From contig NZ_BMSK01000012.1 of the NCBI RefSeq assembly GCF_014649115.1, positions 1 through 64,000 of the forward strand: a stretch of 64,000 bases of DNA, in the 5' to 3' direction. Shown piece after piece: positions 6,072 to 58,023 of the stretch. Origin of the DNA: Streptomyces eurythermus (lineage in GTDB: Bacteria; Actinomycetota; Actinomycetes; Streptomycetales; Streptomycetaceae). The translations under genes and the position numbers were made by a program. Below the pieces are notes generated by a model. That model searched no databases and was not told the origin of the DNA. It saw only the letters and a list, made by a program, of their open reading frames with translations. How positions within the stretch are numbered: the first letter of the stretch is position 1; every line of letters begins with the position of its first letter.

Positions 6072-6430
6072 CAGTGGTCCTCATTCCGGTTGTACGAGTA
6101 CATCGGGGCTTCGATGTACTTCGGTGTGCTGCGGTTGTCGCTGTGGTGGTTCTCGATGGCGGTGTACCGCCGGGGCGCGGGGAGCTCGGGGTCCTCGTGG
6201 ATGCCGAGGGCCTCCTCCAGCTCGGCCTCCCGCCGGGCCATGTTGTCGCGGACGTCGAACGCGAAGCCGACCGCGCGGTCCTTCAGGCGCTGACCGGTCT
6301 CCAGGGCCTTGTTCGCCGCGGTGGCGGCCAGGCTCTCCGGGGTCAGCTGCCTGATCTTGCGGTTGACCTTGGTGGTGGCCCACACACCGGCGGCGACACC
6401 GGTGGAGAACCAGAACGTACGGCGGAACAT
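6071..6430 (-). CDS. Small predicted membrane-associated protein upstream of alaS (DUF6167-like)
   Basis: 119 residues. The first 20 form a hydrophobic segment ([20 protein letters not shown]), followed by a charged helical part ([20 protein letters not shown]) and a Tyr/Asn-rich tail. The layout matches the short uncharacterised protein found next to alaS across Streptomyces. Function is unknown; a membrane-anchored helix is all the sequence shows. It is translationally coupled to alaS and follows the DUF948 gene by 15 bases. Confidence 0.8.
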
Positions 6431-6445
6431 CGCTCGGTCTCGTCC

Positions 6446-6874
6446 TTACTTCCGCTTGCGTCGTGCGGCGGGGACCGTCCGGCCCACGATCACGGTACGC
6501 CGGGCCGACTTGGCGGGCACGTCCTCCCCCTTGCGGCCGCCGAGCGCCCGGCGGACGCCGTAGCCGAAGGCCGCGACCTTGACCAGCGGGCCGCCGAAGG
6601 TGGAGGCGACGGTGGTCGACAGCGCGGAGGCGTTGGAGGCGACCTCCTGGACGTCGGAGGCGATCGCGTCGACCCGGTCGATCTGGGTCTGCGCGGAGCG
6701 CACCGCCTGGGAGGCGTCGGCGAGCAGCGGGACGGCCTGGTCGGTCACGTCCGCGACGAGCTTGGTGGTCGCCTTGAGCGTCTGGGCCAGCCTCGCCAGC
6801 GCGACCGCGAGGAAGGAGACCAGGATCGCCCAGAAGACGGCCACCAGGATCCCGGCCACCTCTGTACCGGACAC
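6446..6874 (-). CDS. DUF948 membrane protein
   Basis: 142 residues. One N-terminal membrane helix (GTEVAGILVAVFWAILVSFL) is followed by a long amphipathic helix with heptad-like spacing (RLAQTLKATTKLVADVTDQA, DASQAVRSAQTQIDRVDAI) and a very basic tail ending RKRK. This is the DUF948 arrangement, thought to be an envelope or stress-related coiled coil. The start is a GTG with AGGGAG about 10 bases upstream; an in-frame GTG two codons earlier is possible. It is first of the alaS-ruvX-mltG-aroE gene string. Confidence 0.82.
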   Translation of the reverse strand: MSGTEVAGILVAVFWAILVSFLAVALARLAQTLKATTKLVADVTDQAVPLLADASQAVRSAQTQIDRVDAIASDVQEVASNASALSTTVASTFGGPLVKVAAFGYGVRRALGGRKGEDVPAKSARRTVIVGRTVPAARRKRK

Positions 6875-6997
6875 TGTGCGCACCCGCTCCCTGAAACGTG
6901 CCTGAGCATCGGAAAAGTCGTGTCCCGAGCCTATCGCGCCGGGGCCCCGGGTCCGTACCGGATTCCCCGCCGCCGCGGGCGCGCTCGCGCCGGGTGA

Positions 6998-7027
6998 TTG
7001 TACGCAGTGAACACGGTTCAGTACGCT
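6998..7027 (+). promoter_or_regulatory. Probable promoter of a leaderless mRNA for the STAND ATPase gene
   Basis: TTGTAC, an 18-base spacer and TACGCT read like a sigma-70-type (HrdB) promoter. The -10 box ends nine bases before the ATG of the downstream gene, so transcription would start at or within a few bases of the start codon. No Shine-Dalgarno sequence lies before that ATG, which fits leaderless translation, common in Streptomyces. Confidence 0.5.
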
Positions 7028-7036
7028 CCGTGTCCC

Positions 7037-9208: not shown

Positions 9209-9228
9209 GGCGTACGCCGTGACCTGGG

Positions 9229-9843
9229 TCAGCGGGCGTAGTACTCGACGACGAGCTGCTCGTCGCAGATCACCGGGATCTCCTTGCGGTTCGGCTCGCG
9301 GTCCAGGCGGAACGCCAGGGCCTTGAGGTTCACCTGGAGGTAGCGCGGGGTCTCGCCGTCGGGGGCGAAGCCACCCTCACGGGCGATCTGGAACAGCGTC
9401 TTGTCCTTGGAGCGGTCGCGGACCTGCACGACGTCGTCCGGGCGGACACGGAAGGACGGCTTGTCGACCTTCTGGCCGTTGACCTGGATGTGGCCGTGGA
9501 CGACCATCTGGCGGGCCTGGTAGATCGTGCGGGCGATGCCCGAACGCAGGACCAGCGCGTCGAGGCGGCGCTCCAGCTCCACGATCAGGGCCTCACCGGT
9601 CTTGCCCTGGACCTTGGAGGCACGCTCGTAGGCGCGCACCAGCTGGCGCTCGGAGATGTCGTACTGAGCGCGCAGGCGCTGCTTCTCCAGCAGACGGACC
9701 TTGTAGTCCGAGTTCTGCTTGCGGCCGCGGCCGTGCTCGCCCGGCGGGTAGGGGCGGGCCTCGAAGTACTTGACGGCCTTCGGGGTCAGCGCGATGCCGA
9801 GGGCACGCGACTTCTTGACCTTGGGGCGGGACTGGTTCGCCAC
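9229..9843 (-). CDS. rpsD: 30S ribosomal protein S4
   Basis: 204 residues, full length. It has an N-terminal S4 region ([20 protein letters not shown]), a [17 protein letters not shown] motif and the S4 RNA-binding fold ([20 protein letters not shown] and [14 protein letters not shown]). S4 binds 16S rRNA early in 30S assembly. The start is GTG with GGAAATGAG upstream. As in other Streptomyces the gene stands alone rather than in the rpsK-rpoA operon. There is no cysteine zinc knuckle in the N-terminus, so it is the C-minus paralogue type. Confidence 0.96.
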
Positions 9844-10147
9844 AGTTATCTCATTTCCTAGATTCCGGCTCGTCAGGGTTTAGGGAGGTCGCATCCGCAG
9901 CCGGGAAAACCCGTCGGGTCCGCGCGGGACCTGCCGGGCAGCCGCTTCCCTGGTCTGGGCACATACGTGCAGCACGCGAGTGGCCCACCGACCGTCCCGG
10001 GATCTCACGGGGGGTGGTGGGCTGCCCGCGACACCGTTCGACGGTGCGCGACGCTCCTGGAGCCGGTCCGCGGGGAACCGGGTCTCCGGCCGGTTGTCCC
10101 GCTCTGACAGCACGGAACTCGGCACTTCGCAGCAGTCTACAGGCTGC
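9844..10147. other. Region upstream of rpsD
   Basis: About 300 bases without a gene between rarA and rpsD, both on the minus strand, so it must hold the rpsD promoter and leader. A 6-bp hairpin with arms CACCGT and ACGGTG around TCG occurs near 10032-10046. I could not identify a clear -35/-10 pair or a recognisable S4-binding autoregulatory leader. Confidence 0.35.
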
Positions 10148-39956: not shown

Positions 39957-40337
39957 CGGTCTCTCCTGACTGAAGGTGGGTGCGGCGCCATACCAGGAGC
40001 GCGCGCACAGGCGATCGTACCGACCCGACGGCACCGACCGCGAAACGGTCACCCTCCGTCCACGCCCGGCTACGCGCCCCCGCCGGTCTCCTCCGGGGGG
40101 CCGGGGGTCCTCCTGGAGGGGCCTCGGCAGCCGGTCGACGGCCTCGCGGGGGGCGAGCGCGGCGGGGCCAGGGGCGCGGCACCGGCATGACGACCGGGGT
40201 CTTGGCGGCCGTGGGCCGCTGAACTGCGCGGACCCGTACTCCTGTTCCCTCCTGGCGGCGTACGGCGCAAACGGCCCGGGTATCACCAAACGGCAGAAGA
40301 CGGGACGTCAGCTGCCGTGGGTGAGCGAGGTGTTGGG
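39957..40337. other. Divergent region between thrS and the exonuclease gene
   Basis: No gene seen. On the minus strand TACGAT (near 40013-40018) could be a thrS -10 box without a good -35. The rest is GC-rich with several short G/C inverted repeats; nothing resembles a T-box (no specifier hairpin or T-box consensus). Confidence 0.35.
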
Positions 40338-41063
40338 ATGACGACCTGGTACGAGGGGCCGCTGGCCGCCTTCGACACGGAGACGACGGGCGTCGACGTC
40401 GAGACCGACCGGATCGTGTCGGCCGCCGTCGTCGTCCAGGACGCGCCGGGGACCCGGCCCCGGGTGTCGCGCTGGCTGGTGAATCCGGGGGTGCCGGTGC
40501 CGGCGGAGGCGACGGCGGTGCACGGGCTGACGGAGGAGCACCTCCAGCACAACGGGCGCTGGCCGGCGCCGGTGATGTACGAGATAGCCGAGCAGCTGGC
40601 GGAGCACGCGACGCTGGGCCGCCCGCTGGTGGTGATGAACGCGCCGTTCGATCTGACGCTGCTGGACCGGGAGTTGCGCCGGCACCGGGCGTCGTCGCTG
40701 GCGCGCTGGTTCGACTCGGTGCCGCTGAAGGTGCTGGATCCGCGGGTGCTCGACCGGCAGCTGGACCGGTACCGCAAGGGCCGCCGCACGCTGAGCGATC
40801 TGTGCGCGCACTACGGCGTGACATCGCAGGGCGCGCATGACGCGGCGGCGGACGCGCTGGCCGCGCTGGATGTCGTACGGGCGCTGGGGCGGCGTTTCGC
40901 GACCCGGCTGGAGCGGCTGTCCCCGGCCGAGTTGCACGCGCTCCAGGTGGAGTGGCACGCGGCGCAGGCGCGCGGGTTGCAGGCGTGGTTCGCGCGCAGT
41001 GGTTCGGAGGAGACGGTGTGCACTCAGTGGCCGCTGCGGCCGGAGCTGCCGGCGGCGGCGTGA
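40338..41063 (+). CDS. DEDDh-type 3'-5' exonuclease (DnaQ family)
   Basis: 241 residues. The acidic residues are visible as FDTETTGVD (Exo I), MNAPFDLTLLDRE (Exo II) and HDAAADALAALDV (Exo IIIe with the His). It is a stand-alone epsilon-like exonuclease and could act in proofreading, repair or RNA trimming. The ATG has GAGG seven to ten bases upstream. Transcription ends at a shared hairpin facing a tRNA gene. Confidence 0.92.
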   Translation: MTTWYEGPLAAFDTETTGVDVETDRIVSAAVVVQDAPGTRPRVSRWLVNPGVPVPAEATAVHGLTEEHLQHNGRWPAPVMYEIAEQLAEHATLGRPLVVMNAPFDLTLLDRELRRHRASSLARWFDSVPLKVLDPRVLDRQLDRYRKGRRTLSDLCAHYGVTSQGAHDAAADALAALDVVRALGRRFATRLERLSPAELHALQVEWHAAQARGLQAWFARSGSEETVCTQWPLRPELPAAA

Positions 41064-41135: not shown

Positions 41136-41142
41136 TTCCCGG

Positions 41143-41214
41143 TGGGCGATACTGGGATCGAACCAGTGACCTCTTCGGTGTGAACGAAGCGCTCTCCCGC
41201 TGAGCTAATCGCCC
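41143..41214 (-). tRNA. tRNA-Val (anticodon CAC), copy 1
   Basis: 72 bases with a complete cloverleaf: acceptor GGGCGAT/ATCGCCC, D arm GCTCAGCGGGAGAGC, anticodon loop TTCACAC and T loop GGTTCGATCC. The discriminator is A and CCA is not encoded. It differs from the second copy at only two positions. Confidence 0.95.
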
Positions 41215-41227
41215 GGGAACGCACTGA

Positions 41228-41257
41228 ACAATACAGGTCCGGGCGCCCTTCGTTCAA
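41228..41257 (-). promoter_or_regulatory. Promoter of tRNA-Val copy 1
   Basis: TTGAAC, 18 bases, TATTGT on the minus strand, ending 13 bases before the tRNA 5' end. The -35 box overlaps the stop codon of the SRPBCC gene, so the tRNA promoter is embedded in the end of that gene. Confidence 0.7.
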
Positions 41258-41700
41258 ACCGCCTCCAGACGGCGCAGCAGTCCGCGCCGTCCGGCCCGCA
41301 TCATCAGGCGGTGATTGAGGCGGAACAGGGGCCGTCCGGGCAGGGCGAGCCGCCTGAGCAGGGGCCGGCCCACGAAGACGTCCTGTTCGTAGCGGGCGAG
41401 GGTGCCGGGGCCGCCGGCGGTGATCGTCCAGCGGGCCCAGCCGTGGAGGTCTCCGGAGAGGGCGGCCTCCAGGACGCCGGCGGCCGGGTCGCGGCGGGTC
41501 TGCCGCAGGGTGGCGGTGAGGGCGAGGGGCAGCGCGGAGCGGATGACGATCAGGCCGGTGTGTTCGTCCAGGCGGGTCGCCGACCGCACCTGGGGCCACC
41601 ACCGGGGGTAGTCGTCGGCCCGCTCCAGCACCGCGTAGACGGCGGCGGGCGGGGCGGGCAGGGGCCATGTGCTGTGGAAGCGGTAGTGGTGGGGGTCCAT
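41254..41700 (-). CDS. SRPBCC (START-like) family protein, polyketide cyclase/dehydrase type
   Basis: 148 residues. It starts HYRFHSTWPLPAPPAAVYAV (the typical first strand of the SRPBCC fold), then ADDYPRWWPQV and an RWTITAGGPGTLARYEQDVF stretch. This fold forms a hydrophobic ligand pocket; the substrate cannot be inferred. The ATG lies 32 bases from an 18-bp palindrome that could be its operator. Its stop codon overlaps the tRNA-Val promoter. Confidence 0.82.
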   Translation of the reverse strand: MDPHHYRFHSTWPLPAPPAAVYAVLERADDYPRWWPQVRSATRLDEHTGLIVIRSALPLALTATLRQTRRDPAAGVLEAALSGDLHGWARWTITAGGPGTLARYEQDVFVGRPLLRRLALPGRPLFRLNHRLMMRAGRRGLLRRLEAV

Positions 41701-41731
41701 GGGGCGAGTGTGACGGGGTGGGCGGATAAAT

Positions 41732-41749
41732 CTGAGTACGCGTACTCAG
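41732..41749. promoter_or_regulatory. Perfect 18-bp palindrome upstream of the SRPBCC gene
   Basis: CTGAGTACGCGTACTCAG is fully self-complementary and sits 32 bases before the SRPBCC start, next to an AT-rich ATAAAT stretch, unusual here, that could be part of a -10. The position fits a repressor operator. The lyase gene reads towards it from the other side and ends just beyond, so only the SRPBCC gene would be controlled. Confidence 0.6.
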
Positions 41750-41823
41750 GTGCCCTGCCGTGGGCCGGGTCACACTGGGAGGGTGAGCGCCGCCGCCCGT
41801 GCTGCGGCGCTCCCCCAGCCGCC

Positions 41824-44568
41824 TCATGGCTGGACCGGCATCCTGTCGCCGAGCAGGGCGAGGTTCTCGATGGCGGCGAGGCCGTAGAGGGCGGTGTCGT
41901 TGGTGGACACCCAGGCCGCCTCGCGGCCCTCCACCAGGCCGGCCGGTCCGGTCAGCTTCTCGGTCTTCCAGGGCGCGGACTCGGTGTAGCCGTCGGAGTT
42001 GTAGAACTTGGCCCAGGCGCGCTTGGCGAGGGCCGGGTCGCCGGTCTGTACGGCGGCGTAGGCGTCGAGGCGCGAGTGGCCCTGGAACAGCAGCAGGGTG
42101 CCGAAGTTGGTGCCGTAGCGGGCGGCCTGTTCGGCCTTGGTGGCGTTGAAGTAGCGGCAGTAGTCCAGGTACGCCTCCTTGAACTTCGGCATGTCGACGA
42201 GGTGGATGAGTTCGGCGCACAGTTCGTTGAGTCCGAAGACGGCCGAGAGGTGGGAGACGGAGACGGCCGGCTTGCCGGCGACGGCGAACTCGCCGGTGTC
42301 GAGGTCGTAGAGCCCGCTGCCCTGGACGAAGCCGTTGGGCTGGGCGGCGATGCCCGCCATCGTGGACAGCACGCGTGCCTTGGCCTTCTCCCACTTGGGG
42401 CCCTTGCGTTCCCACTCGGTGAGCCAGGCCGACACCAGGCCGCTCCAGTCGGTGCCGAAGCCGATGGACAGGGCGTGCCGGTCGGGGGTGTAGGGGTCGG
42501 TGCGGACCTTGCGCTGGGGGTCGAGGACGAGGAAGGTCTCGTCGGAGTCGACGTTGGCGTGCATGAGGTCGCCGACGCGTTCGTCGGCGGTGAGGAAGTA
42601 GTAGAAGCGCCGGTAGGTGGTGTTGGCGATGCGCTGCTGTTTGGCGCTGTCGGCGAAGTGCTGGACGCCGTGCCGGGTGCCGAGGCCGGCCCAGGTGCCG
42701 AGGTGGTAGACGTCGACCTCGCCGGTGTGCCGGGTCATGGCCTCGGCGAAGCGGAAGATGTCGGACCGGCCGCTTCTGAGGTACGCGTACCAGAGCCACA
42801 GGTCGGGTGAGAGTTCGGAGTTGTCCCAGGCGTAGCCGCCGATGTCGTAGCGCCATACGTGCCGGGCGGAGTCGTAGGTGTGCATGATGTCGCCGTAGTC
42901 CCAGAAGCCGTACCAGCGGCGCGTCTCCACCTGGTCCTTGTAGTAGGTGAAGAGGAAGTCGAGGTGGTCCTCGATCCTGGCCTTGGCGGGGGTGGAGCGG
43001 TCGGGCTCGGAGTACAGGCCGGGGCCGAAGACCTTGGCCTTGATGAGCTGCTTGGGCGGGGCGGCGAGCTGCGGCAGGACGCGTACGGCTTCGGCCTGCC
43101 GGGCGAGGGTGTCGGCGGTGGGGGTGGAGTCGTTGGCCCAGAAGAGGAGTTCGGAGGTACGGGCGATGCCGTAGGGGGTGCCGAAGCCGGGCTCGTAGTC
43201 CTCGTAGGTGATGTTGAGGCCCTCGAGCTGTTCGGCGTAGGTGTCCTGGCCCATGCCGTCGTGGTAGAAGCGCAGGTCCATGGGCTGGGCCTCGGGTGAC
43301 CAGAGCCAGAGGGTGACGGTGGCCTGGTCGGTGTGGGCGTCGCGGATGTCGAGCTGGGCGGGGAACTTCTCCCAGAAGTCGCGCAGGCCGAAGGAGAGGC
43401 CGCCGCTCGCGCCGCCGACGTAGCCGAAGCCGGAGGCGCGCCGGCCGCCGCCGGCGGTGATCCAGCCGTGGCCCTTCTTGGTGCGCTTGCGGACGGTGAA
43501 GCCGTCGGCGGAGAGCTGGGCGAGGGTGTAGTCGCCCCAGTGCGGGATGTACCCCAGCCGGGTGGTGACCCGCTGGTCCCAGGTAGCGGGGTCGGGCAGC
43601 TTCCTCCCCTCGTACTGGGCGGCCTGGACGGCGGCGCCGGGGTCGCGGCGCAGTCCGGTGATGCCCTGGACGGCCTCGCGCAGCAGTCCGGTGCCCTCGC
43701 CGCCGATGCGGATGTGCCGGTCGTAGGCCGCGTCGCGCATCGGCACGGTGAAGCGGACTCCGAGGCCGCGGATGAAGTCGCCGCTCGCCTTGCCGGGCTC
43801 CTGCTTCCCGTCGTAGGTGATGGTGTGCACCATGCGGAAGGAGTCGGAGCCGGCGTAGAAGTACAGGCGGAGGGAGAACGGCAGCCACTCCCGGTCGCCC
43901 TTGCGGTGCTTGCCGTCGACGCGGACGACGGCCCGGACCGGTCCGTCCTGTTCGACGGTGACGGCGGAGACGGCGCCGTCGAAGCGTTCGGTCCTGACCG
44001 CGCCCTGGTCCTCGTCCTCGATCTCGGGCTGGCGGAGCAGGACGAGCCGGCCGTTGCGGGCGATCTCGGTGGAGCCGCGGGTGACGGACTTGATGAGCGT
44101 GGAGCCGTTCTTGCCGATCTTCGCGGTGATGACGCCGGTGGAGACGTCGATGGTGCCGCCGCCGCTGTCGACGGTGACCTTCCGCGCGGGCTCGGCGGGG
44201 GTGCCCGTGGTGAGCGTGAGCTTGCCGGTGCCGGTGGCGACGGCGTGGGCGGTCCATTTGAGGGAGCCGTCGGGCCAGTAGGCGAGCGGCCAGGTCTGCA
44301 CGGGGACGTGCCCGCCGTCGGCGTCGGTGACCGCGAAGGACTGGTCCGCCTGGTGGGCGCCCATCGGCCAGGGCACGCCGACGGTGGCGCCGGGCGCGGC
44401 GCCGAGGCCGCCGTCCTCCAGCCAGTCCAGGGTCACCGGGTCGGCGCCGTCGGCGGCGGCAGCGGGCGCGGCCTCGGCGTCCCGGGCGCCCAGGGCCCAG
44501 CTGAGCTGGGCGGCCGCTCCGGCGACGGCGGCGGCCTTGAGAAGGGACCTGCGGGGGATGGGGGACAT
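41824..44568 (-). CDS. Tat-exported exo-rhamnogalacturonan-lyase-like protein (PL26-type)
   Basis: 914 residues. The twin-arginine signal SPIPRRSLLKAAAVAGAAAQ ends in an Ala-rich cleavage region (ARDAEAAPA). The mature protein opens with VTLDWLEDGGLGAAPGATVG and WPLAYWPDGSLKWTAHAV, typical of the exo-rhamnogalacturonan lyase-like family (fungal PcRGLX), then a long beta-rich and helical body with many aromatic residues (YKDQVETRRWYGFWDYGDIM, LAGLGTRHGVQHF-type segments). It probably degrades pectin side or backbone material outside the cell. The ATG has GGAAAGG upstream. It lies downstream of an ABC sugar importer and a YesL-like gene on the same strand. Confidence 0.72.
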   Translation of the reverse strand: MSPIPRRSLLKAAAVAGAAAQLSWALGARDAEAAPAAAADGADPVTLDWLEDGGLGAAPGATVGVPWPMGAHQADQSFAVTDADGGHVPVQTWPLAYWPDGSLKWTAHAVATGTGKLTLTTGTPAEPARKVTVDSGGGTIDVSTGVITAKIGKNGSTLIKSVTRGSTEIARNGRLVLLRQPEIEDEDQGAVRTERFDGAVSAVTVEQDGPVRAVVRVDGKHRKGDREWLPFSLRLYFYAGSDSFRMVHTITYDGKQEPGKASGDFIRGLGVRFTVPMRDAAYDRHIRIGGEGTGLLREAVQGITGLRRDPGAAVQAAQYEGRKLPDPATWDQRVTTRLGYIPHWGDYTLAQLSADGFTVRKRTKKGHGWITAGGGRRASGFGYVGGASGGLSFGLRDFWEKFPAQLDIRDAHTDQATVTLWLWSPEAQPMDLRFYHDGMGQDTYAEQLEGLNITYEDYEPGFGTPYGIARTSELLFWANDSTPTADTLARQAEAVRVLPQLAAPPKQLIKAKVFGPGLYSEPDRSTPAKARIEDHLDFLFTYYKDQVETRRWYGFWDYGDIMHTYDSARHVWRYDIGGYAWDNSELSPDLWLWYAYLRSGRSDIFRFAEAMTRHTGEVDVYHLGTWAGLGTRHGVQHFADSAKQQRIANTTYRRFYYFLTADERVGDLMHANVDSDETFLVLDPQRKVRTDPYTPDRHALSIGFGTDWSGLVSAWLTEWERKGPKWEKAKARVLSTMAGIAAQPNGFVQGSGLYDLDTGEFAVAGKPAVSVSHLSAVFGLNELCAELIHLVDMPKFKEAYLDYCRYFNATKAEQAARYGTNFGTLLLFQGHSRLDAYAAVQTGDPALAKRAWAKFYNSDGYTESAPWKTEKLTGPAGLVEGREAAWVSTNDTALYGLAAIENLALLGDRMPVQP

Positions 44569-44943
44569 GACCTTTCCTTCCATGGGCGGGGTGGTGGGTG
44601 CGGTCAGGGGCATGACAGGGGTGGCTACGGCGCTCAGGGCGCGGGGTCCGAGAAAAGGGGTGTGGATGTGGCGGTTGCCCGGCTCCCCTGGGCCGGGTCG
44701 TTCAGTGCCGCCCGGGTCCGGAAGCAGCCCGTTCAGCGGCGCGCGGGTCCGGGAACCGCCCGTTCGGCGAAGCCGGAGTCCGGGCCGCGGGCTTTCCCGG
44801 GCGTCTGACTTCGGTAGCCGCGGGCTCCAGCGCGTCGGTTTCCGGCGGCCGCTGGTTCCGGCGGCCCCGGAGTGCGGGGCGTTGCCGGCCTTTCCCGTGC
44901 CGCGCGCTCCGCGGGCCACCGCTGAGACCGGCGGGGCCGGGGG
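44569..44943. other. Gap between the YesL-like gene and the lyase gene
   Basis: 375 bases, no gene. It holds the short direct repeats and GC-rich low-complexity sequence. I see no LacI-type operator here like the one before the transporter, and no sure promoter, so the lyase could be read either from the transporter operon or from its own promoter. Confidence 0.4.
44713..44770. repeat. Short direct repeats upstream of the lyase gene
   Basis: A segment GGGTCCGG-A---GCCCGTTC-GCG occurs twice 31 bases apart (from 44714 and 44745). A third degenerate copy may end near 44700. They lie 145-200 bases before the lyase start. Confidence 0.5.
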
Positions 44944-45534
44944 TCACCGGCGGCGGTAACGCTCCTCGACGGCGACGGCCGCCCCTGCCACGACTCCCAG
45001 CACGGGGACCGCCAGCGGGGCGATGAGCAGGGCCGGACAACAGGTGAGGACGGCTCCGCCGACCAGCAGGAAGGAGCCCGCGGGGTCCCGTACGGTGCGC
45101 CGCCCGGCGTCGGCGAGCAGGACCCGCCAGCGCTCGCCGGGCGCCCACACCGCCGCCGCCCGCAGCCCGGCCACCGCGAGCCCGAGCAGCGCGAGCAGTC
45201 CCACGGCCCCGACCAGGGGCCCGCCGGGCAGTCCGGCGCGTACGGCCCGGACGTCCAGCCAGGCGACCGCCGCGGCGGCCCAGCCGACGGCGCCGACGGC
45301 CCATCCCCCGCGCAGCGCGGAGCGGAGGTCGGCGGTGAACTCCCGCCATCCGCCGCCCTGGTGGGCGGTGCGCCGGCGCAGGTGCCGGGCGCCGGCGGCG
45401 AACGCGGCCGGGTAGGTGACCACGCCGAGGCAGGCCACCGCGATCCACACCCCGGTCAGCAGGGACTCGGCGAAGACGCCGTACCGCTCCGCGAACCCGG
45501 ACTCCCGGCGCGGCCGCACCCGTGCTTGGGACAT
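44944..45534 (-). CDS. DUF624/YesL-like membrane protein
   Basis: 196 residues with about five membrane helices. The start GFAERYGVFAESLLTGVWIAVACLGV and the VTYPAAFAAGARHL stretch fit the DUF624 (YesL) family, whose members often sit in sugar ABC transporter operons; the T-x-P-A element matches. Function is unknown. Its ATG is three bases after the permease stop, so it is part of the transporter operon. Confidence 0.72.
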   Translation of the reverse strand: MSQARVRPRRESGFAERYGVFAESLLTGVWIAVACLGVVTYPAAFAAGARHLRRRTAHQGGGWREFTADLRSALRGGWAVGAVGWAAAAVAWLDVRAVRAGLPGGPLVGAVGLLALLGLAVAGLRAAAVWAPGERWRVLLADAGRRTVRDPAGSFLLVGGAVLTCCPALLIAPLAVPVLGVVAGAAVAVEERYRRR

Positions 45535-45537
45535 GGT

Positions 45538-46437
45538 TCAGCCCTTCAGTCCGGAGGTCGCCATGCCGTCGATCAGATAGCGCTGGAAGGCGAGGAAGAA
45601 CAGCAGCACCGGCAGCAGCGCGACCAGTGACATGGCGATCATGCCTCCGTAGTTGGCGGCCACGCCGTCGGAGTCGCGGAACATCATCAGGCCCAGGGAG
45701 ACGGTGTACTTGCCGGGCTCGTTCAGGTAGATCAGCGGGCCCATGAAGTCGTTCCAGGCGTTGATGAAGGTGAAGATCGCGCTGGTGATGAGCGCGGGCC
45801 GGCACAGCGGCAGCACGATCGACCAGTAGGTGCGCAGGTGCCCGCAGCCGTCGAGCCGGGCGGCCTCGTCCAGTTCCCGGGGCAGGTTCCGCATGAACTG
45901 CACCATGAGGAAGACGAAGAATGCCTCGGTGGCGAGGTACTTGCCGATCAGCAGCGGGACGTAGGTGTTGACCAGTTCCAGCTTCTGGAACATCACGTAC
46001 TGCGGGATCAGCAGGACGTGGTACGGCAGCAGGAGCGTGCCGATCATGAGGGAGAACAGCAGGTTGCGGCCGGCGAACTTGATGCGCGCGAAGGCGTAGG
46101 CGGTCAGCGAGCAGGAGACCAGGACACCGACGACCGCGCCGCCCGCGTAGAGCAGGGAGTTCTGGAAGAACGTCCAGATCCTGATGTCCGCTATGCCGTC
46201 GGCGAGGCCCTTGAAGTTGGACAGTATGGGGTGGGACGGGAACAGCGTGAGGCTGTTGATGATGTCCTTGCTGGGTTTGAACGAGGCGCCGATCACCCAG
46301 ACGACCGGGTAGAGGATGACGGCCAGGATCAGCAGGGCGCCGAGGTGCCAGGCGAGGGAGCCGGCCCGCCGGCGGCCGGGGCCCGGGGTCCGGGGGCCGG
46401 CCGCGCGCACCGGGGCGTTGGTGGTGGTGGCGCTCAT
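45538..46437 (-). CDS. Carbohydrate ABC transporter permease (CUT1, MalG type)
   Basis: 299 residues, six membrane helices. The EAA loop reads ELDEAARLDGCGHLRTYWSI-VLPL, which contacts the ATPase. The Pro-rich C-terminal helix and the MATSGLKG end are typical of MalG-like permeases. It overlaps the second permease by four bases (ATGA). No ATPase gene is present in the operon, as is common in Streptomyces where MsiK energises many sugar importers. Confidence 0.93.
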   Translation of the reverse strand: MSATTTNAPVRAAGPRTPGPGRRRAGSLAWHLGALLILAVILYPVVWVIGASFKPSKDIINSLTLFPSHPILSNFKGLADGIADIRIWTFFQNSLLYAGGAVVGVLVSCSLTAYAFARIKFAGRNLLFSLMIGTLLLPYHVLLIPQYVMFQKLELVNTYVPLLIGKYLATEAFFVFLMVQFMRNLPRELDEAARLDGCGHLRTYWSIVLPLCRPALITSAIFTFINAWNDFMGPLIYLNEPGKYTVSLGLMMFRDSDGVAANYGGMIAMSLVALLPVLLFFLAFQRYLIDGMATSGLKG

Positions 46438-47405
46438 CGGGCGTCCTCCTCGTAGTGCACCCACTTCTTCTGGGACCAGAAGAGGACGGCCGTCACCAGG
46501 GCCACGGCGAGCAGCAGCATCCAGGCCATGGCGGAGGCGAAGCCCATCTGGGCGTTCTTGAAGCCCTGCTGGTAGAGGTAGCAGGTGTAGACGAGGGTGG
46601 CGTCGGCCGGTCCGCAGGCGGTGTTGGAGACGACGTAGGCCGAGCCGAAGATCTGGAACGAGTGGATGGTCTCCAGCAGCACGTTGAAGAACAGCACCGG
46701 GGAGATCATCGGCAGGGTGATGTTCCAGAACCTGCGGAAGGGTCCGGCGCCGTCCATCTCGGCCGCTTCGTAGAGTTCCCTGGGCACCTGCTTGAGCCCG
46801 GCCAGGAAGATGACCATGGGCGCCCCGAACTGCCAGACGGTGAGCGCGACCAGGGAGTACATCACCCAGTCGGCGTTGCCGACCCAGCCGCCGACGTGGA
46901 AGCCGAGGAAGGTCTGCGTACGGTCCACGACGGCGCCGTCGGAGAACAGCGAGCGCCAGACGAAGCCGACCGAGACGCTCGCGCCGATGAGCGAGGGGGC
47001 GTAGAAGGCGGCCCGGTAGAAGGCCTGGCCGCGGCGGCTCTGCGCGAGGAGCAGGGCGACGCCGAGGGCGAGCAGCAGTTTGAGGGGGGTGCCGATGACG
47101 ACGTACTTGGCCGTCACCTCCACCGACTTCTGCCAGCGCGGGTCGTCGAACATCTTGGTGAAGTTGTCGAGACCCACCCACTTGGGGCTGGTGAAGAGGT
47201 TGTAGTCGGTGAACGCGAAGTAGAGGGAGGCGATCATCGGGCCCGCGGTCAGCAGCAGGAACCCGGCGATCCACGGGGACATGAACAGATAGCCGGCGAG
47301 GTTCTCCCGCCGCCGGCCCGGCCGCCCCGTCCTCGCGGTGGCGGCCCGGCGCGCGCCGCGGGTCGCGGGCACGGAGTCCTTGACGAGCGTCACGGCGTTT
47401 CCCAT
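46434..47405 (-). CDS. Carbohydrate ABC transporter permease (CUT1, MalF type)
   Basis: 323 residues with six membrane helices. The EAA loop is ELYEAAEMDGAGPFRRFWNI-TLPM. The N-terminus is basic (RRAATARTGRPGRRRENLAG) before the first helix YLFMSPWIAGFLLLTAGPMI. It overlaps the binding-protein stop by one base (TGATG). Confidence 0.93.
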   Translation of the reverse strand: MGNAVTLVKDSVPATRGARRAATARTGRPGRRRENLAGYLFMSPWIAGFLLLTAGPMIASLYFAFTDYNLFTSPKWVGLDNFTKMFDDPRWQKSVEVTAKYVVIGTPLKLLLALGVALLLAQSRRGQAFYRAAFYAPSLIGASVSVGFVWRSLFSDGAVVDRTQTFLGFHVGGWVGNADWVMYSLVALTVWQFGAPMVIFLAGLKQVPRELYEAAEMDGAGPFRRFWNITLPMISPVLFFNVLLETIHSFQIFGSAYVVSNTACGPADATLVYTCYLYQQGFKNAQMGFASAMAWMLLLAVALVTAVLFWSQKKWVHYEEDAR

Positions 47406-48688
47406 CAGGCCTGGAAGGCGGCTTCGGCCTCGGTGAAGAACTGCTTCACCGCGTCGGAGACCTTGGACCTGCCCTGTCCGAGGTCGCCGCCGAGGCGCAG
47501 GAAGGCGGCCTCGATGGTGTCGGCACCGGAAGGGTGCGGGGTGATCGCGCCGAGGACGCCGGTCTTGGCGGTGTCCTCCTCGTACCGCGCGATCTCCTTG
47601 TTGACCGCGTCGGCCGGCTTGTAGGCCGCGAACTGCTCGGTGCTGGTGAGGATGCCGCGGTCGTAGCCCATGATCTTGCCGACCCGGGGGTCGTGGACCA
47701 TGAATTCGATGAACCGCGCGACCTCCTCGGGGTGCGAGGTGCGGGCGGAGGCGCTGAGCATCAGGGAGGCGAGGTACTGGCCGGTGTGCTTGCCGTCCGT
47801 GGTGGGGATGGGCGCGAGGCCGTACTCGCTGTCGCCCTCGGCCGAGTAGCGGACGGTGAAGTTGTCCCAGGTGAACTCCGAGGCGCCGTGGCCGGCGGAG
47901 AGGGAGGACTTGGGCTTGTCCTGCTGGACGACCTTGGGGTCGGTGACGACTCCGGCCCTGACCCGGCCCAGGCCGTCCGTCCACCACTCCGTCAGATCGG
48001 CCTTGTCGAAGCCGAGTCCGTCGTCGGTGAAGAACGCCTTGCCGTTCTGGCGCAGGTAGAGGTCGTACAGGTACATGATGGTGAAGTAGCCGGTGTCCCC
48101 GGGGACCCGCGTCTTGTCGTGGATGGTCTTCAGGGCCTTGAAGTACTCGTCCCAGGTCCAGCCCGGCCGGGGTTCGACGCCCGCCTTCCGGAAGAGCTTC
48201 TTGTCGATGACGAGTGACATGGTGTTGGAGCCGACCGGAATCCCGAGCTGCTTGCCGTCGACCTCGCCGACCTTCGTGACGCCCGCGCGGAAGTGATCCA
48301 GGCTCAGATTTCCGGCCTCCACCTGAGGCTTGAGATCGAGGAGAATTCCGCGCTTGTCGTACTTCCTGAGGAAAGTGACGGCGTTTTGGAAAACGTCCGG
48401 GGGGTTTCCGCCGGCGGCCTGGGTCTGGAACTTCTCCCAGAACGAGTCGTACGTCTGGAAATCGGTTTTGACCTTGATCTTGGGGTATTTCTGCTCGAAG
48501 AGGGCGATGGACTGATTGATCTTCTTGGCCCGCTCCTCGGCACCCCACCAGGAGTAACGGATCGTCACCGTGCCGTTTCCGGAGCCGCTTCCGCCACCGC
48601 AGCCGGTGGTCGCGGCGAGCCCGAGCGTGGCCGCCGACGCCCCGGCCGCCTTCAGGATCGTACGCCTGTCAAGATTCCTGGTTCCCAC
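47405..48688 (-). CDS. Sugar ABC transporter substrate-binding lipoprotein
   Basis: 427 residues. The N-terminus has a twin-arginine motif (DRRTILKAAG, Arg8-Arg9) and a hydrophobic stretch ending in Cys30 (TTGC). The lipobox is weak but the pattern suggests a Tat-exported lipoprotein. The rest is an extracellular solute-binding family 1 protein (TIRYSWWGAEERAKKINQSI, GNPPDVFQNAVTF, WTWDEYFKALKTIHDKT). Ligand is unknown, possibly a rhamnogalacturonan oligosaccharide by context. The GTG start has GGGGAGGG upstream; two LacI-type operator sites precede it. Confidence 0.92.
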   Translation of the reverse strand: MGTRNLDRRTILKAAGASAATLGLAATTGCGGGSGSGNGTVTIRYSWWGAEERAKKINQSIALFEQKYPKIKVKTDFQTYDSFWEKFQTQAAGGNPPDVFQNAVTFLRKYDKRGILLDLKPQVEAGNLSLDHFRAGVTKVGEVDGKQLGIPVGSNTMSLVIDKKLFRKAGVEPRPGWTWDEYFKALKTIHDKTRVPGDTGYFTIMYLYDLYLRQNGKAFFTDDGLGFDKADLTEWWTDGLGRVRAGVVTDPKVVQQDKPKSSLSAGHGASEFTWDNFTVRYSAEGDSEYGLAPIPTTDGKHTGQYLASLMLSASARTSHPEEVARFIEFMVHDPRVGKIMGYDRGILTSTEQFAAYKPADAVNKEIARYEEDTAKTGVLGAITPHPSGADTIEAAFLRLGGDLGQGRSKVSDAVKQFFTEAEAAFQA

Positions 48689-48724
48689 AGTCGGGCCCTC
48701 CCCGCAGCATCTCCGCCACGCGCA

Positions 48725-48747
48725 TGAATCGTTTCAAGTAAGCGCTT
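48725..48747 (-). promoter_or_regulatory. Double LacI-family operator-like site before the sugar importer
   Basis: TGAATCGTTTCA (plus-strand 48725-48736) and the palindrome AAGCGCTT (48740-48747) resemble LacI/GalR-family operators (centre CG, inverted TGAAA/AGCG arms). Centres are 13 bases apart, 40-55 bases upstream of the start codon, where a promoter is expected. No LacI-type gene lies in this window. Confidence 0.7.
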
Positions 48748-48929
48748 GCTGGCACAAGGTACGAAGGGGCCAGGGGTGCGTCAATGACCCGGACAGGATT
48801 TTCTTGCGGGCGCCCGGACCGGCCGACCGGCCCGCTGCCCGCCCCCACCGCCGGAAACGGTCCGGCCCGCCGGCCGTTCCCACTGGTGGGGGAAGCGTGA
48901 CCGACGGGCCGAACGAACCGGACGGGGAA

Positions 48930-49958
48930 TCAGGCGGGCAGGGAGGCCAGCCAGTCGAGCAGGATCCGGTTCGTCTCCTCCGGGCGCTCCTGCTGGACGA
49001 AGTGGCCGCAACCGTCCAGGATGTGCGAACCGAGAAGGCCGGGCAGCGTCTCGGGGAAGGCCTTGACGGCATCGGCCAGCCAGGCGAGGGAGGCGTCCCG
49101 CTCGCCCCCGATGAACAGCGAGGGCCGCGTGATCGGTCGCCCCGCCCAATCGGCCAGGTCGGCCCAGTCCCGGTCCATGTTCCGGTACCGGTTCAGAGCC
49201 CCGGCCATCCCCGTCCGCTCGAACTCGCCGGCGTAGACGTCCAGGTCCCGCTCCCCCAGCCAGGACGGCAGCACGCCGACGGGGAAACGCTCGCGCAGCG
49301 TCCCGCCGGCCCCGGTGAAGTGCGGGTCGGGAGCGCCGGGGGCGGGCATGGTGTCGGCGGACAGCGCCGCGTAGAAGCCCGCGAGCCAGCCGCGCACATC
49401 GGGCTCCATCTCGGCTTCGGCCCGGCCGGGCTGCTGGAAGTAGGAGATGTAGAACTCCTCGGGGCGGGGGTGGGCGCCAGGCGATCCGGCACCGGGCTCG
49501 TCGCCCGAGCCCGCTCCGCCCATGCGGGCGAAGACCTCGCTGGGGCGGGGGCCGCCGGGCGGGGTGTACGGCACGCCGAGCAGCCCCACGGCCCGGAACA
49601 CGTCCGGCCTGGTCAGAGTGGACGTGGCGGCGATCGTCGCGCCCCAGTCGTGCCCGACGACCACGGCGGAACGCTCGCCCAGCGCCTCCACCACGGCGAC
49701 GTTGTCCGCGACCAGGTCGAGCATCCGGTACGCCTCCACGGCCTCCGGCTTGGACGAACGGCCGTACCCCCGCACATCGATCGCCACCGCGCGGTAACCG
49801 GCCGAGGCGAGTGCCGCCAGCTGGTGCCGCCAGGCGTACCAGGACTCCGGGAAGCCGTGCAGAAGCAGCACCAAGGGCCCGCTGCCCTGCTCGACCAGGT
49901 GGATACGGCCGGCCGGGGAGGGGACGAGACGGTGGGTGGGGGTGGCGGTGGGTGGCAC
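48930..49958 (-). CDS. Alpha/beta hydrolase, epoxide-hydrolase-like
   Basis: 342 residues. HGFPESWYAWRHQL is the oxyanion-hole motif; the nucleophile is the Asp in VVGHDWGATIA, as in epoxide hydrolases and haloalkane dehalogenases; GCGHFVQQE carries the catalytic His. Cap-domain tyrosines (EFYISYFQQPG) favour an epoxide hydrolase. GTG start with AGGAGAT upstream. It lies between the sugar importer and a tRNA-Val gene. Confidence 0.88.
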   Translation of the reverse strand: MPPTATPTHRLVPSPAGRIHLVEQGSGPLVLLLHGFPESWYAWRHQLAALASAGYRAVAIDVRGYGRSSKPEAVEAYRMLDLVADNVAVVEALGERSAVVVGHDWGATIAATSTLTRPDVFRAVGLLGVPYTPPGGPRPSEVFARMGGAGSGDEPGAGSPGAHPRPEEFYISYFQQPGRAEAEMEPDVRGWLAGFYAALSADTMPAPGAPDPHFTGAGGTLRERFPVGVLPSWLGERDLDVYAGEFERTGMAGALNRYRNMDRDWADLADWAGRPITRPSLFIGGERDASLAWLADAVKAFPETLPGLLGSHILDGCGHFVQQERPEETNRILLDWLASLPA

Positions 49959-49983
49959 GGGATCTCCTGAGGTAGTGGGAGCT

Positions 49984-50047
49984 GGGACGGGTGGGCGGTT
50001 GGGTCGGGGTGCGGTCCTGAGGGGTGGGGGGTTCCGGGGGGCTGGGG
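49984..50047 (+). other. Two G-quadruplex-type motifs upstream of the hydrolase gene
   Basis: The plus strand has GGG-ac-GGG-t-GGG-(cggtt)-GGG-tc-GGGG (49984-50009) and, after a gap, GGGG-t-G6-ttcc-G6-ct-GGGG (50021-50047). Both satisfy the four-tract quadruplex rule. They lie 25-90 bases upstream of the hydrolase start, on the template strand for that minus-strand gene. Confidence 0.5.
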
Positions 50048-50614
50048 TGCGTACGAGGTGTGGGGTCTGCCGGTCCCGGGAAGGTCCTGGCGTCGCGGGT
50101 GCCCTCCGTCGGCCCTGGGGCAGGCGGCGGGCAGGAGTGCCGGGCAGGGCGGGGCGGGGTGGTTGGACGCGCCGGGAGCGGGCCGAGCGGGTCGGCGCGC
50201 CGAGGGCCGGCCGGTGTCGGGCGCGGCCCGCGAAGGGGCCGGTCGGAACGGGTCCGGGGTGCTGGAGGCGTGGGTACGGACGGGTGGGTGTCGGAGACGG
50301 TGGGTGACTCTTGCCCGGGGCCCTGAACACGATGATCAGGTGGGTGACGGGGCCGGGACGAGGGTTGTTGCCGGTTCGGCAAAACGCGCCCTCGCGGGGT
50401 GAGGTGGAGGCCGAGGGCCCGCCGGCCACGTCCGCGCGTCGAACCAGTCACCGACCGTGAGTCCGACGCCCCGCCACATGCCCGGCGCCCACCGCGGGCC
50501 CGGGACCCGAAACCCCGCAAGCGCCGCCGTACGTACACCAGGGCGCCGCAAGGGCTCGCGAGGACCGCCGGCCGCGCCTGCCCGCCGCCGTACGCCCGCA
50601 CCGGCGCGGATACG

Positions 50615-50651
50615 CCGACGGCCCATCTGCCTGTCGCAGATGGGCCGTCGG
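50615..50651 (-). terminator. Terminator of tRNA-Val copy 2
   Basis: A perfect 16-bp stem (arm CCGACGGCCCATCTGC) with loop CTGTC, starting seven bases beyond the tRNA 3' end. Confidence 0.85.
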
Positions 50652-50657
50652 TCCGGG

Positions 50658-50729
50658 TGGGCGATACTGGGTTCGAACCAGTGACCTCTTCGGTGTGAAC
50701 GAAGCGCTCTCCCACTGAGCTAATCGCCC
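50658..50729 (-). tRNA. tRNA-Val (anticodon CAC), copy 2
   Basis: 72 bases, intact cloverleaf with acceptor GGGCGAT/ATCGCCC and anticodon loop TTCACAC. CCA is not encoded. A TAATGT -10-like box lies 14 bases upstream, but the -35 is poor. It differs from the other CAC copy by two bases, one in the D loop and one in the T loop. Confidence 0.95.
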
Positions 50730-50814: not shown

Positions 50815-51279
50815 TCACTGGTCCTTGATCTTCCAGGGCATGACGAAACCGAACTTCCACAGGTAGATCCCGGCGAGCACGCCGATGATCACCAGTCCGA
50901 TCACGGTGAGGGTGATGTTGCGTCGGCGCACCTTGGGGTCGAGGGCCCGCTGGGCCGCCTCGGTGACCTTGCGTTTGGTCCAGCGGAGCACGAGCTGGGC
51001 CCAGACGAACTCGGTCGCCCAGATCGCCATGCCGCCGAAGATCACGACCCAGCCGGGACCGGGCAGCGGCAGCATGATGATGCCGGCGACGACCACCGCG
51101 AGGCCGACCACGAAGACGCCGACCTGCCAGCTCAGATGGAGAAGCCGGCGGGACTTGATGAATTCCGGCGCCCGCGAGCCCAGCCCGCTCCCGGCTCCTT
51201 CGGCGGTCTCCTGCCGGTCTGTCTTGGCCTTGTCCGATGCCACGGCGACCTCGCCCGGTTCGTCACTCCCCGTATTCAT
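50815..51279 (-). CDS. TIGR02611-type small membrane protein
   Basis: 154 residues. An N-terminal charged region, two close membrane helices (LSWQVGVFVVGLAVVVAGII, PLPGPGWVVIFGGMAIWATE) separated by the LPLPGPGW motif, a basic loop and a third helix (NITLTVIGLVIIGVLAGIYL) fit the TIGR02611 actinobacterial family, of unknown function. The ATG begins NTGSDEPG. It diverges from ssgB. Confidence 0.85.
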   Translation of the reverse strand: MNTGSDEPGEVAVASDKAKTDRQETAEGAGSGLGSRAPEFIKSRRLLHLSWQVGVFVVGLAVVVAGIIMLPLPGPGWVVIFGGMAIWATEFVWAQLVLRWTKRKVTEAAQRALDPKVRRRNITLTVIGLVIIGVLAGIYLWKFGFVMPWKIKDQ

Positions 51280-51298
51280 ATAGACAAACCCTACCCGA

Positions 51299-51312
51299 GT
51301 GAAACCAGTCAC
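51299..51312. promoter_or_regulatory. GTGA-N6-TCAC inverted repeat between the TIGR02611 gene and ssgB
   Basis: GTGAAACCAGTCAC is a short inverted repeat 20 bases upstream of one start and about 160 bases upstream of ssgB, in a region where developmental regulators are expected. Its binding protein cannot be told from sequence. Confidence 0.4.
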
Positions 51313-51470: not shown

Positions 51471-51884
51471 ATGAACACCACGGTCAGCTGCGAGCTGCAC
51501 CTGCGCCTCGTTGTGTCGAGCGAGTCCTCCCTGCCTGTCCCCGCAGGCCTGCGGTACGACACGGCCGACCCCTACGCCGTGCACGCCACCTTCCACACCG
51601 GAGCCGAGGAGACCGTCGAGTGGGTGTTCGCCCGCGACCTCCTCGCCGAGGGCCTGCACCGGCCCACCGGCACCGGCGACGTCCGCGTCTGGCCATCCCG
51701 CAGCCATGGTCAGGGCGTCGTGTGCATCGCCCTCAGCTCCCCGGAGGGAGAGGCGCTGCTCGAGGCCCCCGCGCGGGCCCTGGAGTCCTTCCTGAAGCGA
51801 ACCGACGCCGCCGTGCCGCCCGGCACGGAGCACCGGCACTTCGACCTGGATCAGGAGCTCTCGCACATCCTGGCGGAGAACTAG
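51471..51884 (+). CDS. ssgB: Sporulation protein SsgB (SsgA-like protein)
   Basis: 137 residues, matching the very conserved SsgB: NTTVSCELHLRLVVSSESSL, RYDTADPYAVHATFHTGAEE, FARDLLAEGLHRPTGTGDVR and FDLDQELSHILAEN. SsgB positions FtsZ at future septa in aerial hyphae together with SsgA, so it marks a sporulating streptomycete. The start is the ATG after AAAGG. A strong hairpin ends the transcript. Confidence 0.97.
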   Translation: MNTTVSCELHLRLVVSSESSLPVPAGLRYDTADPYAVHATFHTGAEETVEWVFARDLLAEGLHRPTGTGDVRVWPSRSHGQGVVCIALSSPEGEALLEAPARALESFLKRTDAAVPPGTEHRHFDLDQELSHILAEN

Positions 51885-57734: not shown

Positions 57735-57806
57735 GGACGATTAGCTCAGCGGGAGAGCGCTTCCCTGACACGGAAGAGGTCACTGGTTCAATCCCAGTAT
57801 CGTCCA
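57735..57806 (+). tRNA. tRNA-Val (anticodon GAC), copy 1
   Basis: 72 bases, acceptor GGACGAT/ATCGTCC, anticodon loop CTGACAC, T loop GGTTCAATCC. CCA is not encoded. It starts one base after the tRNA-Cys CCA. Confidence 0.96.
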
Positions 57807-57844
57807 CTGGATCTTCGGATCCCGGATCTTCTCGAAGGTCCCCC

Positions 57845-57916
57845 GCGCGATTAGCTCAGCGGGAGAGCGCTTCCCTGACACGGAAGAGGTCACTGGTTCA
57901 ATCCCAGTATCGCGCA
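57845..57916 (+). tRNA. tRNA-Val (anticodon GAC), copy 2 with altered acceptor stem
   Basis: Identical to its neighbours except for the acceptor stem, GCGCGAT/ATCGCGC instead of GGACGAT/ATCGTCC. Both altered pairs (2-71 and 3-70) keep Watson-Crick pairing, so the gene looks functional rather than decayed. Confidence 0.95.
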
Positions 57917-57945
57917 CTGTCTGTGACTTGCGGGTCACAGTTCCC

Positions 57946-58017
57946 GGACGATTAGCTCAGCGGGAGAGCGCTTCCCTGACACGGAAGAGGTCACTGGTTC
58001 AATCCCAGTATCGTCCA
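57946..58017 (+). tRNA. tRNA-Val (anticodon GAC), copy 3
   Basis: 72 bases, identical to copy 1, including the acceptor stem. Last gene of the operon; a perfect terminator hairpin follows. Confidence 0.96.
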
Positions 58018-58023
58018 CACAGC

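Follow-up and report, generated by a model that had tools for sequence, protein, structure and literature searches.

An integrase-free variable gene slot between two tRNA-Val(CAC) genes of Streptomyces, probably shaped by deletion and by replacement of importer alleles between species

A 64,000-nucleotide stretch of Streptomyces eurythermus DNA (assembly GCF_014649115.1, contig NZ_BMSK01000012.1, positions 1 to 64,000; hereafter the window) carries two near-identical tRNA-Val(CAC) genes with accessory genes between them, and this interval (hereafter the slot) was compared among related genomes. The slot is very likely an integrase-free variable locus lying between an old tRNA pair and shaped by deletion and by the replacement of importer alleles between species. 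A fixed tRNA pair, gene modules that are present or absent in one order, module fragments, distinct importer types and a conflict of the importer with the flanking genes are directly seen in the compared loci.

Results

The tRNA-Val(CAC) pair in the window, the genus and the family

41143..41214, minus strand, left tRNA-Val(CAC) gene (ARAGORN and pattern search)
50658..50729, minus strand, right tRNA-Val(CAC) gene (ARAGORN and pattern search)

The pair had been described in the first-pass annotation as two 72-base tRNA-Val(CAC) genes on one strand with two differences, and ARAGORN (spans 41141-41214 and 50656-50729 for tRNA-Val(cac), minus strand) and the pattern search agreed on it. The two mismatches were located at gene positions 16 and 58. 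As judged by eye, the likeness of the copies extends only a few bases beyond the gene, and the hairpin-like sequences 3' of the two genes are unlike each other.

Among 150 genomes of the genus (one per species, as in all the genomes compared), exactly two copies of tRNA-Val(CAC) were found in 140, one in 8 and none in 2. By a tally of coordinates, the copies share a contig and a strand in 127 of the two-copy genomes and lie on separate contigs in the other 13, and the spacing between the copies in the genus loci ranged from 146 to 14,183 bases. A draw of 61 genomes from the family (51 from other genera) gave a tRNA-Val(CAC) match, with 3 mismatches allowed, in 56, and the remaining 5 all belong to genus g3. 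In 35 of the 51 other-genus genomes, by tally, a single contig carries two same-strand copies no more than 5.3 kb apart; the remainder comprised 4 genomes with one copy, 1 with three, 1 with opposite-facing copies (G152), 5 with copies on separate contigs or far apart and 5 with none. Because two copies persist in the genus whatever lies between them, the pair is no by-product of the window cassette, and the earlier suggestion that an element had integrated at a tRNA gene and restored it was not supported by these counts in the genus and in the other genera. The best reading of the pair is an old duplicate kept across most of the family, with no mobile-element scar.

The two copies within a locus were identical in 89 of 119 loci, compared with a mean of 59.6 and a maximum of 71 after shuffling, which is only suggestive of gene conversion between the copies because the shuffling ignores relatedness. 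At gene positions 25 and 43 (presumably canonical 26 and 44), G/A was found in 221 of 238 genes and A/G in 17, never mixed (119 loci, window included); the A/G form occurs in 10 loci, in both copies in 7, and a never-mixed pattern is expected of a tertiary pair. At L120, the locus of G152, the SsgA-family gene lies inverted between the opposite-facing tRNA genes, as if the stretch had been flipped.

Three of the 8 single-copy genomes of the genus have their copy near a contig edge (G046, G073, G112), and the other five (G037, G047, G050, G120 and G121; 5 of 150), of which G050 is 82% complete, have both flanks on the contig. The right copy is missing in four of these five, the fifth being L072. 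In an alignment of L089 and L075 to the two-copy locus L107, the kept copy had the upstream sequence of the left copy and the stretch with the right copy was gone; deletion of the right copy therefore fits these two loci better than a crossover between the tRNA copies, which was rejected as an origin of the single-copy state. L090 and L091 retain the left copy together with the SRPBCC gene, and ARAGORN detected no second copy in them. A locus with one tRNA gene and nothing between the flanks had been proposed as support for insertion; such an empty state does exist (G047, G050, G120), but the aligned L089 and L075 look like loss of the right copy.

Slot contents and module order

41254..41700, minus strand, SRPBCC (Polyketide_cyc) protein (Pfam)
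41733..41748, strandless, 16-base perfect palindrome TGAGTACGCGTACTCA, operator-like, upstream of the SRPBCC gene
41824..44562, minus strand, PcRGLX-type exo-rhamnogalacturonan lyase (Pfam; PDB 5xq3, E 2.9e-272)
44944..45534, minus strand, protein without family (no Pfam match)
45538..46455, minus strand, sugar ATP-binding cassette (ABC) permease, part of the importer (BPD_transp_1 by Pfam; UgpE/MalG-like below cut-off)
46434..47405, minus strand, sugar ABC permease, part of the importer (BPD_transp_1 by Pfam; UgpA-like below cut-off)
47405..48688, minus strand, solute-binding protein, part of the importer (Pfam; YesO the best solved relative)
48930..50048, minus strand, alpha/beta hydrolase, epoxide hydrolase-like (family searches)

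Loci were fetched for 102 of the 127 genus genomes (67 from the first set and 35 of 60 from the second, mostly those with long or short spacings), together with G201 and 20 loci of other genera; of the 25 genus loci not fetched, 23 have spacings of 2.6-3.5 kb and 2 of 0.8-0.9 kb. As the loci were chosen partly by spacing, the class counts are not prevalences. Modules were called by tblastn on loci with at least two same-strand copies (L068 was corrected) and were denoted S (SRPBCC), U (SCO7613 C-terminal membrane protein, NF047321), R (lyase plus importer) and E (epoxide hydrolase). The SCO7613-type protein had that single NCBIfam match and no Pfam match in the family scans.

Nine content states were found between the same conserved neighbours in the 103 genus loci: none in 8, S in 26, SU in 12, U in 6, SR in 16, UR in 3, SUR in 28, SRE in 3 and SE in 1, the epoxide hydrolase-like gene thus being present in 4. 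For 17 other-genus loci (L118 and L119, with a single copy, and L120, with the inverted pair, standing outside this set) the counts were none in 8, S in 6, U in 2, SU in 1 and R in 0, with the SRPBCC gene in the slot of 7. The order S, U, R, E and the strands of the modules had no exception in 120 of 120 loci. Module-free slots of 146-359 bp, which keep at least two tRNA copies, were found in 8 of 103 genus and 6 of 17 other-genus loci, and two further other-genus loci without the four modules contain another open reading frame (ORF). Other cargo consisted of SpoIIE, isochorismatase and RibD_C genes (in L123, L126 and L137) and of an IS605-type transposase in L081. In L078 (G068; locus positions 5913-10032), a DDE_3 transposase, a histidine kinase, a response regulator and a peptidoglycan-binding-domain protein are encoded between the U and R modules.

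No integrase was found by family searches among the slot genes of the window, as the first-pass annotation had stated, or by Pfam in 8 extra slot ORFs of other loci, ORF-free stretches (up to 2.9 kb, L030) being unscanned; the only mobile-type genes among these 8 are the two transposases of L078 and L081. An exchangeable slot had been suggested as one reading, and the gene content does differ widely between relatives. A locus in which all relatives keep both tRNA genes and the same genes between them, with the codon use of the flanks, had been set against that suggestion: both tRNA genes are kept and the codon use is flank-like, but the genes between them are not constant. A foreign origin was not indicated by composition, since neither the guanine-plus-cytosine (GC) content (0.710 for the slot; 0.714 and 0.730 for the 10-kb flanks) nor the codon-use distance to the flanks (0.060-0.121 for 7 slot genes; 0.060-0.144 for 9 flank genes) gave a signal, and this candidate was rejected.

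Loss of modules

Of the 54 genus loci that lack an intact R module, 13 carry pieces of it between the tRNA genes on the expected strand. As controls, the opposite strand scored in 2 loci, which belong to the 13, and the reversed sequence in 1; no R fragment was found in the 17 other-genus loci. The pieces range from 43 bases to a near-whole gene, and the 13 loci do not all count as separate events, L009 and L049 for instance being sisters. L066, with a compact S slot, matches its flank-tree neighbour L034 through the SRPBCC gene and then resumes within the binding-protein gene, which corresponds to a deletion of about 6.2 kb with ends overlapping by 7 bases. L114 retains pieces of the lyase and binding-protein genes together with the epoxide hydrolase, and in L026, grouped with the window on the flank tree, a 271-base fragment of the binding-protein gene is left. 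Because fragments remain in some loci, a short slot may be a deleted slot, and it is from the fragments and from nesting that we infer loss. A 40-base match tried as a fragment of U1, the membrane-protein gene of the U module, and so as proof of loss in the window, proved to be a GC-rich hairpin and was dropped.

The lyase was also searched for elsewhere in the 53 genomes without an intact slot lyase: it was absent genome-wide from 49 (E 1e-30), full-length in 3 (G070, G123 and G129) and present only as a remnant in the slot in G142, while in the controls 9 of 9 genomes with a slot lyase were recovered. On these counts, relocation of the lyase instead of its loss was rejected. L082 (G070) has importer genes in the slot without an intact lyase and a full-length lyase near the end of another contig, a case of relocation or of an assembly break.

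Importer types and conflict with the flanks

40317..41063, plus strand, DnaQ-like exonuclease, left flank (family searches)
50815..51312, minus strand, TIGR02611/PGPGW protein, right flank (family searches)
51474..51884, plus strand, SsgA-family sporulation protein, right flank (family search)

The importer (two permeases and the binding protein) was compared in 44 of the 50 R-positive loci, L080 being left out for its broken module and L014, L039, L055, L070 and L085 for little flank sequence; the flank tree was built from 117 loci with enough flank sequence. Types were defined by single linkage at 0.85 identity, which sharpens the gap between them, and six were obtained, with amino acid identities of 0.82-0.99 within and 0.61-0.78 between types. 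On the flank tree the types required 12 changes, a number above the minimum of 5 and below all 200 shuffles (mean 24.4, lowest 20), which indicates vertical signal plus conflict; linkage at 0.88 gave eight types and 13 changes. Mantel r values against flank distance were 0.75, 0.57 and 0.69 for the R, U and S modules, respectively.

For a closer test, a clade of six loci was chosen from the flank tree and not from the importer tree. Its support in the Shimodaira-Hasegawa-like approximate likelihood ratio test (SH-aLRT) was 96 for the left flank alone, 97 for the right flank alone and 100 for U1 (4 members with U1; column-poor U1 rows were kept), so that both flanks agree in the one clade tested. 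The clade was rejected by the importer data (P value of the approximately unbiased test, p-AU, 2.9e-5; log-likelihood, lnL, loss 920), by the lyase data (p-AU 3.7e-4, lnL loss 132) and by both together (p-AU 2.9e-30). Between L061 and L098, identity is 86-95% across the lyase, falls to 70-85% across the importer and is 90-94% once more from the right tRNA gene onward, and the left switch point lies between the lyase and permease genes; the importer of L061 is 88-97% identical to that of L021, which belongs to another flank clade. L021 and L095, likewise of different flank clades, share 93-95% identity in importer DNA and 84-88% in the flank genes dnaQ, PGPGW and CGNR; thrS and the ssgB-like gene, which evolve slowly, are 94-95% identical. 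In each of 12 genomes (12/12), one binding protein was more than 60% identical to that of the window and the next at most 36%; since there is a single such protein per genome, the importer donor was probably another genome. The conflict would have arisen by homologous recombination.

Genes of the window slot and its flanks

The cassette genes named in the first-pass annotation (SRPBCC, pectin-type lyase, sugar importer and epoxide hydrolase) were recovered by the family searches. The lyase has all three PcRGLX domains (PF19501, PF21345 and PF21346 by Pfam) and aligns with solved PcRGLX structures over 866 query residues; a twin-arginine translocation (Tat) signal is possible, the Pfam match being below threshold (score 19.6, cut-off 22.7). 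The best match of the solute-binding protein among solved structures was YesO (5z6b, E 3.8e-44). The product of 44944..45534 is probably a membrane protein; a likeness to YesL/DUF624 is the author's impression and was not confirmed by the family searches. The alpha/beta hydrolase is closest to the haloalkane dehalogenase and epoxide hydrolase types. Beside the YesO-like binding protein and the two permeases, no ATPase gene was found among the window slot genes, and the importer is presumably served by a shared ATPase. In the simplest reading, drawn from the sequence, rhamnogalacturonan I would be cut extracellularly by the lyase, and the freed oligosaccharides would enter the cell through the importer.

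The palindrome TGAGTACGCGTACTCA is probably an operator: it was found exactly or with at most 2 mismatches in 30 of 120 slots, at a median of 51 bases (28-199) from the SRPBCC match, and at 9 sites genome-wide with at most 2 mismatches, while two control palindromes were present in 1 and 0 of 120 loci, respectively.

The flanks, called housekeeping genes in the earlier annotation, encode ThrS, a DnaQ-like exonuclease, a PGPGW/TIGR02611 protein and an SsgA-family protein, the last in keeping with a Streptomyces origin. The SsgA-family protein, which we take to be SsgB, was 96-100% identical across the genus loci where it was found, and ThrS, seen as an ORF translation on the left, is presumably named correctly. 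Three tandem tRNA-Val(GAC) genes (57735-58018) lie beside tRNA-Gly and tRNA-Cys genes 7 kb from the right tRNA-Val(CAC) gene, and relatives (e.g. G013) have similar tRNA genes about 7 kb away from the pair.

Discussion

Proposed history and its alternatives

In the history that we propose, the tRNA pair would be an old local duplicate between core genes (thrS and dnaQ-like on the left, PGPGW and ssgB-like on the right), and the gap between the tRNA genes a tolerated landing place. The SRPBCC gene would have entered early, and the SCO7613-type gene and the rhamnogalacturonan module would have been added later in the constant order, with the epoxide hydrolase in one small clade; this order of gains is the one we infer. 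Repeated internal deletions would then have removed modules and left fragments behind, and homologous recombination between species, its breakpoints falling within the slot, would have replaced the importer but not the tRNA genes, the flanks or, for the most part, the lyase.

The bracketing of accessory genes by near-identical direct copies would also be produced by an integrative element that had entered one tRNA-Val(CAC) gene, restored it and lost its integrase later, and the right-hand tRNA gene points its 3' end toward the cassette, an arrangement shared with many attachment sites. Such a relic is highly improbable and was rejected because the pair is fixed, short slots still carry two tRNA genes and no integrase turned up in the window slot genes or the scanned extra ORFs: the two copies are present in 140 of 150 genus genomes with any content, slots of 146-359 bp included, and the repeats are whole genes with differing adjoining sequences. 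By near-identity searches the cassette had no phage match and was covered to at most 14% by 3 plasmid records. The tRNA itself had 94 phage matches, under Synechococcus, Aeromonas and others, with none under Streptomyces and 3 of unknown host; like the plasmid matches of the tRNA, they were unexamined as phage attachment sites (attP). A purely vertical slot, in which every module is ancestral and only losses follow, the importer types being ancient lineages that loss or unequal rates have sorted, would account for the constant gene order, the fragments and the distance correlation. It is nevertheless very unlikely, as the importers of L021 and L095 are closer to each other than are their dnaQ, PGPGW and CGNR genes, a clade backed by both flanks is rejected by the importer, and only one such importer was found in each of the 12 genomes searched.

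Had the whole cassette been exchanged by a double crossover, placed in the tRNA genes or in the core genes beside them, the conserved tRNA genes and the ssgB-like gene would have supplied homology on both sides; Oliveira et al. 2017 (PMC5635113) model exchange through crossover in the neighbouring core genes. Such whole-cassette exchange was judged improbable, since in the clade tested the flanks and U1 are vertical and the importer is not, and the left switch lies between the lyase and permease genes (one clade). A further possibility, which we regard as rather doubtful, is that the importer is a polymorphic cassette of which at least six allelic types circulate in the genus under diversifying selection while the lyase stays in place; such selection may act through sugar decoration, or through evasion of phages or toxins exploiting the binding protein at the surface.

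Several observations weigh against deletion and importer replacement at an old pair. Some members of the family lack the pair (in g5, 4 of 4 genomes have one copy; in g2, 3 of 3 have no nearby pair; in g3, 5 of 9 have no match). No sign of a fragment was seen in 41 of the 54 loci, where an old loss and a module never possessed are indistinguishable; loss of U1 in the window lineage rests on nesting alone; and gain is not told apart from loss by the numbers of changes (14 for S, 14 for U, 11 for R and 3 for E, before one row was corrected). Much of the history of the R module is vertical, given the Mantel r of 0.75 and types far less scattered than shuffled labels. The lyase rejects the six-locus clade too, so that the exchanged tract sometimes exceeds the importer, and the right breakpoint cannot be placed because the intergenic sequence before the right tRNA gene is poorly conserved. 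Finally, one clade was examined closely, with trees from quick searches and SH-aLRT support only.

Near-identical tRNA genes around accessory genes are thus weak evidence for integration. Some short, seemingly empty slots hold cassette fragments, and presence or absence alone would read their history backwards. The loci form a compact natural series (empty, with one module, with all and decaying) in which importer types are exchanged beside a mostly conserved lyase, and this series suits tests of loss versus gain and of selection on importer type. The importer replacement may be the part that specialists find worth following.

Comparison with known systems

PcRGLX, a fungal enzyme with exolytic action and an assigned CAZy family, is the closest known counterpart of the lyase. 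Like PcRGLX (PDB 5xq3 and others), the window lyase has all three Pfam domains; unlike it, the window lyase is bacterial, has a possible Tat signal and is known here from sequence. Literature searches returned no paper joining rhamnogalacturonan, polysaccharide lyase family 26 (PL26) and exolytic, and none joining ssgB and tRNA-Val in Streptomyces; the slot is not claimed to be undescribed beyond such searching.

For the tRNA-Thr site of integrative and conjugative elements (ICEs) and actinomycete ICEs (AICEs) in Streptomyces, direct repeats of 42-43 nt, genes of the element and an empty site are described (PMC6722414). The slot resembles it in holding accessory DNA at a tRNA gene with direct repeats, and differs from the site as described there in that its repeats are whole duplicate genes, no element genes were found and both copies are present in short slots.

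A study of Bacillus subtilis (PMC5730181) links the YesOPQ importer to rhamnogalacturonan I utilization and reports that deleting it had a small effect. The window importer shares with that system, as far as it is described there, a YesO-like binding protein, two permeases, the lack of an ATPase gene of its own and an adjoining rhamnogalacturonan enzyme; it differs in that the adjoining lyase is another one, the importer occurs in exchanged allelic types and its ligand is a predicted one.

Oliveira et al. 2017 (PMC5635113) describe hotspots of horizontal transfer that lie between core genes and lack mobile elements, and propose that homologous recombination exchanges their contents. The slot is like the hotspots described there in its variable content at one site between conserved neighbours, its several states and the lack of an integrase, and unlike them in being bounded by a tRNA pair, in its constant module order instead of unrelated cargo, in its visible deletions and in the exchange inside the slot (in the clade tested). 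It can be placed in this class of variable loci, which are set between core genes and free of mobile elements.

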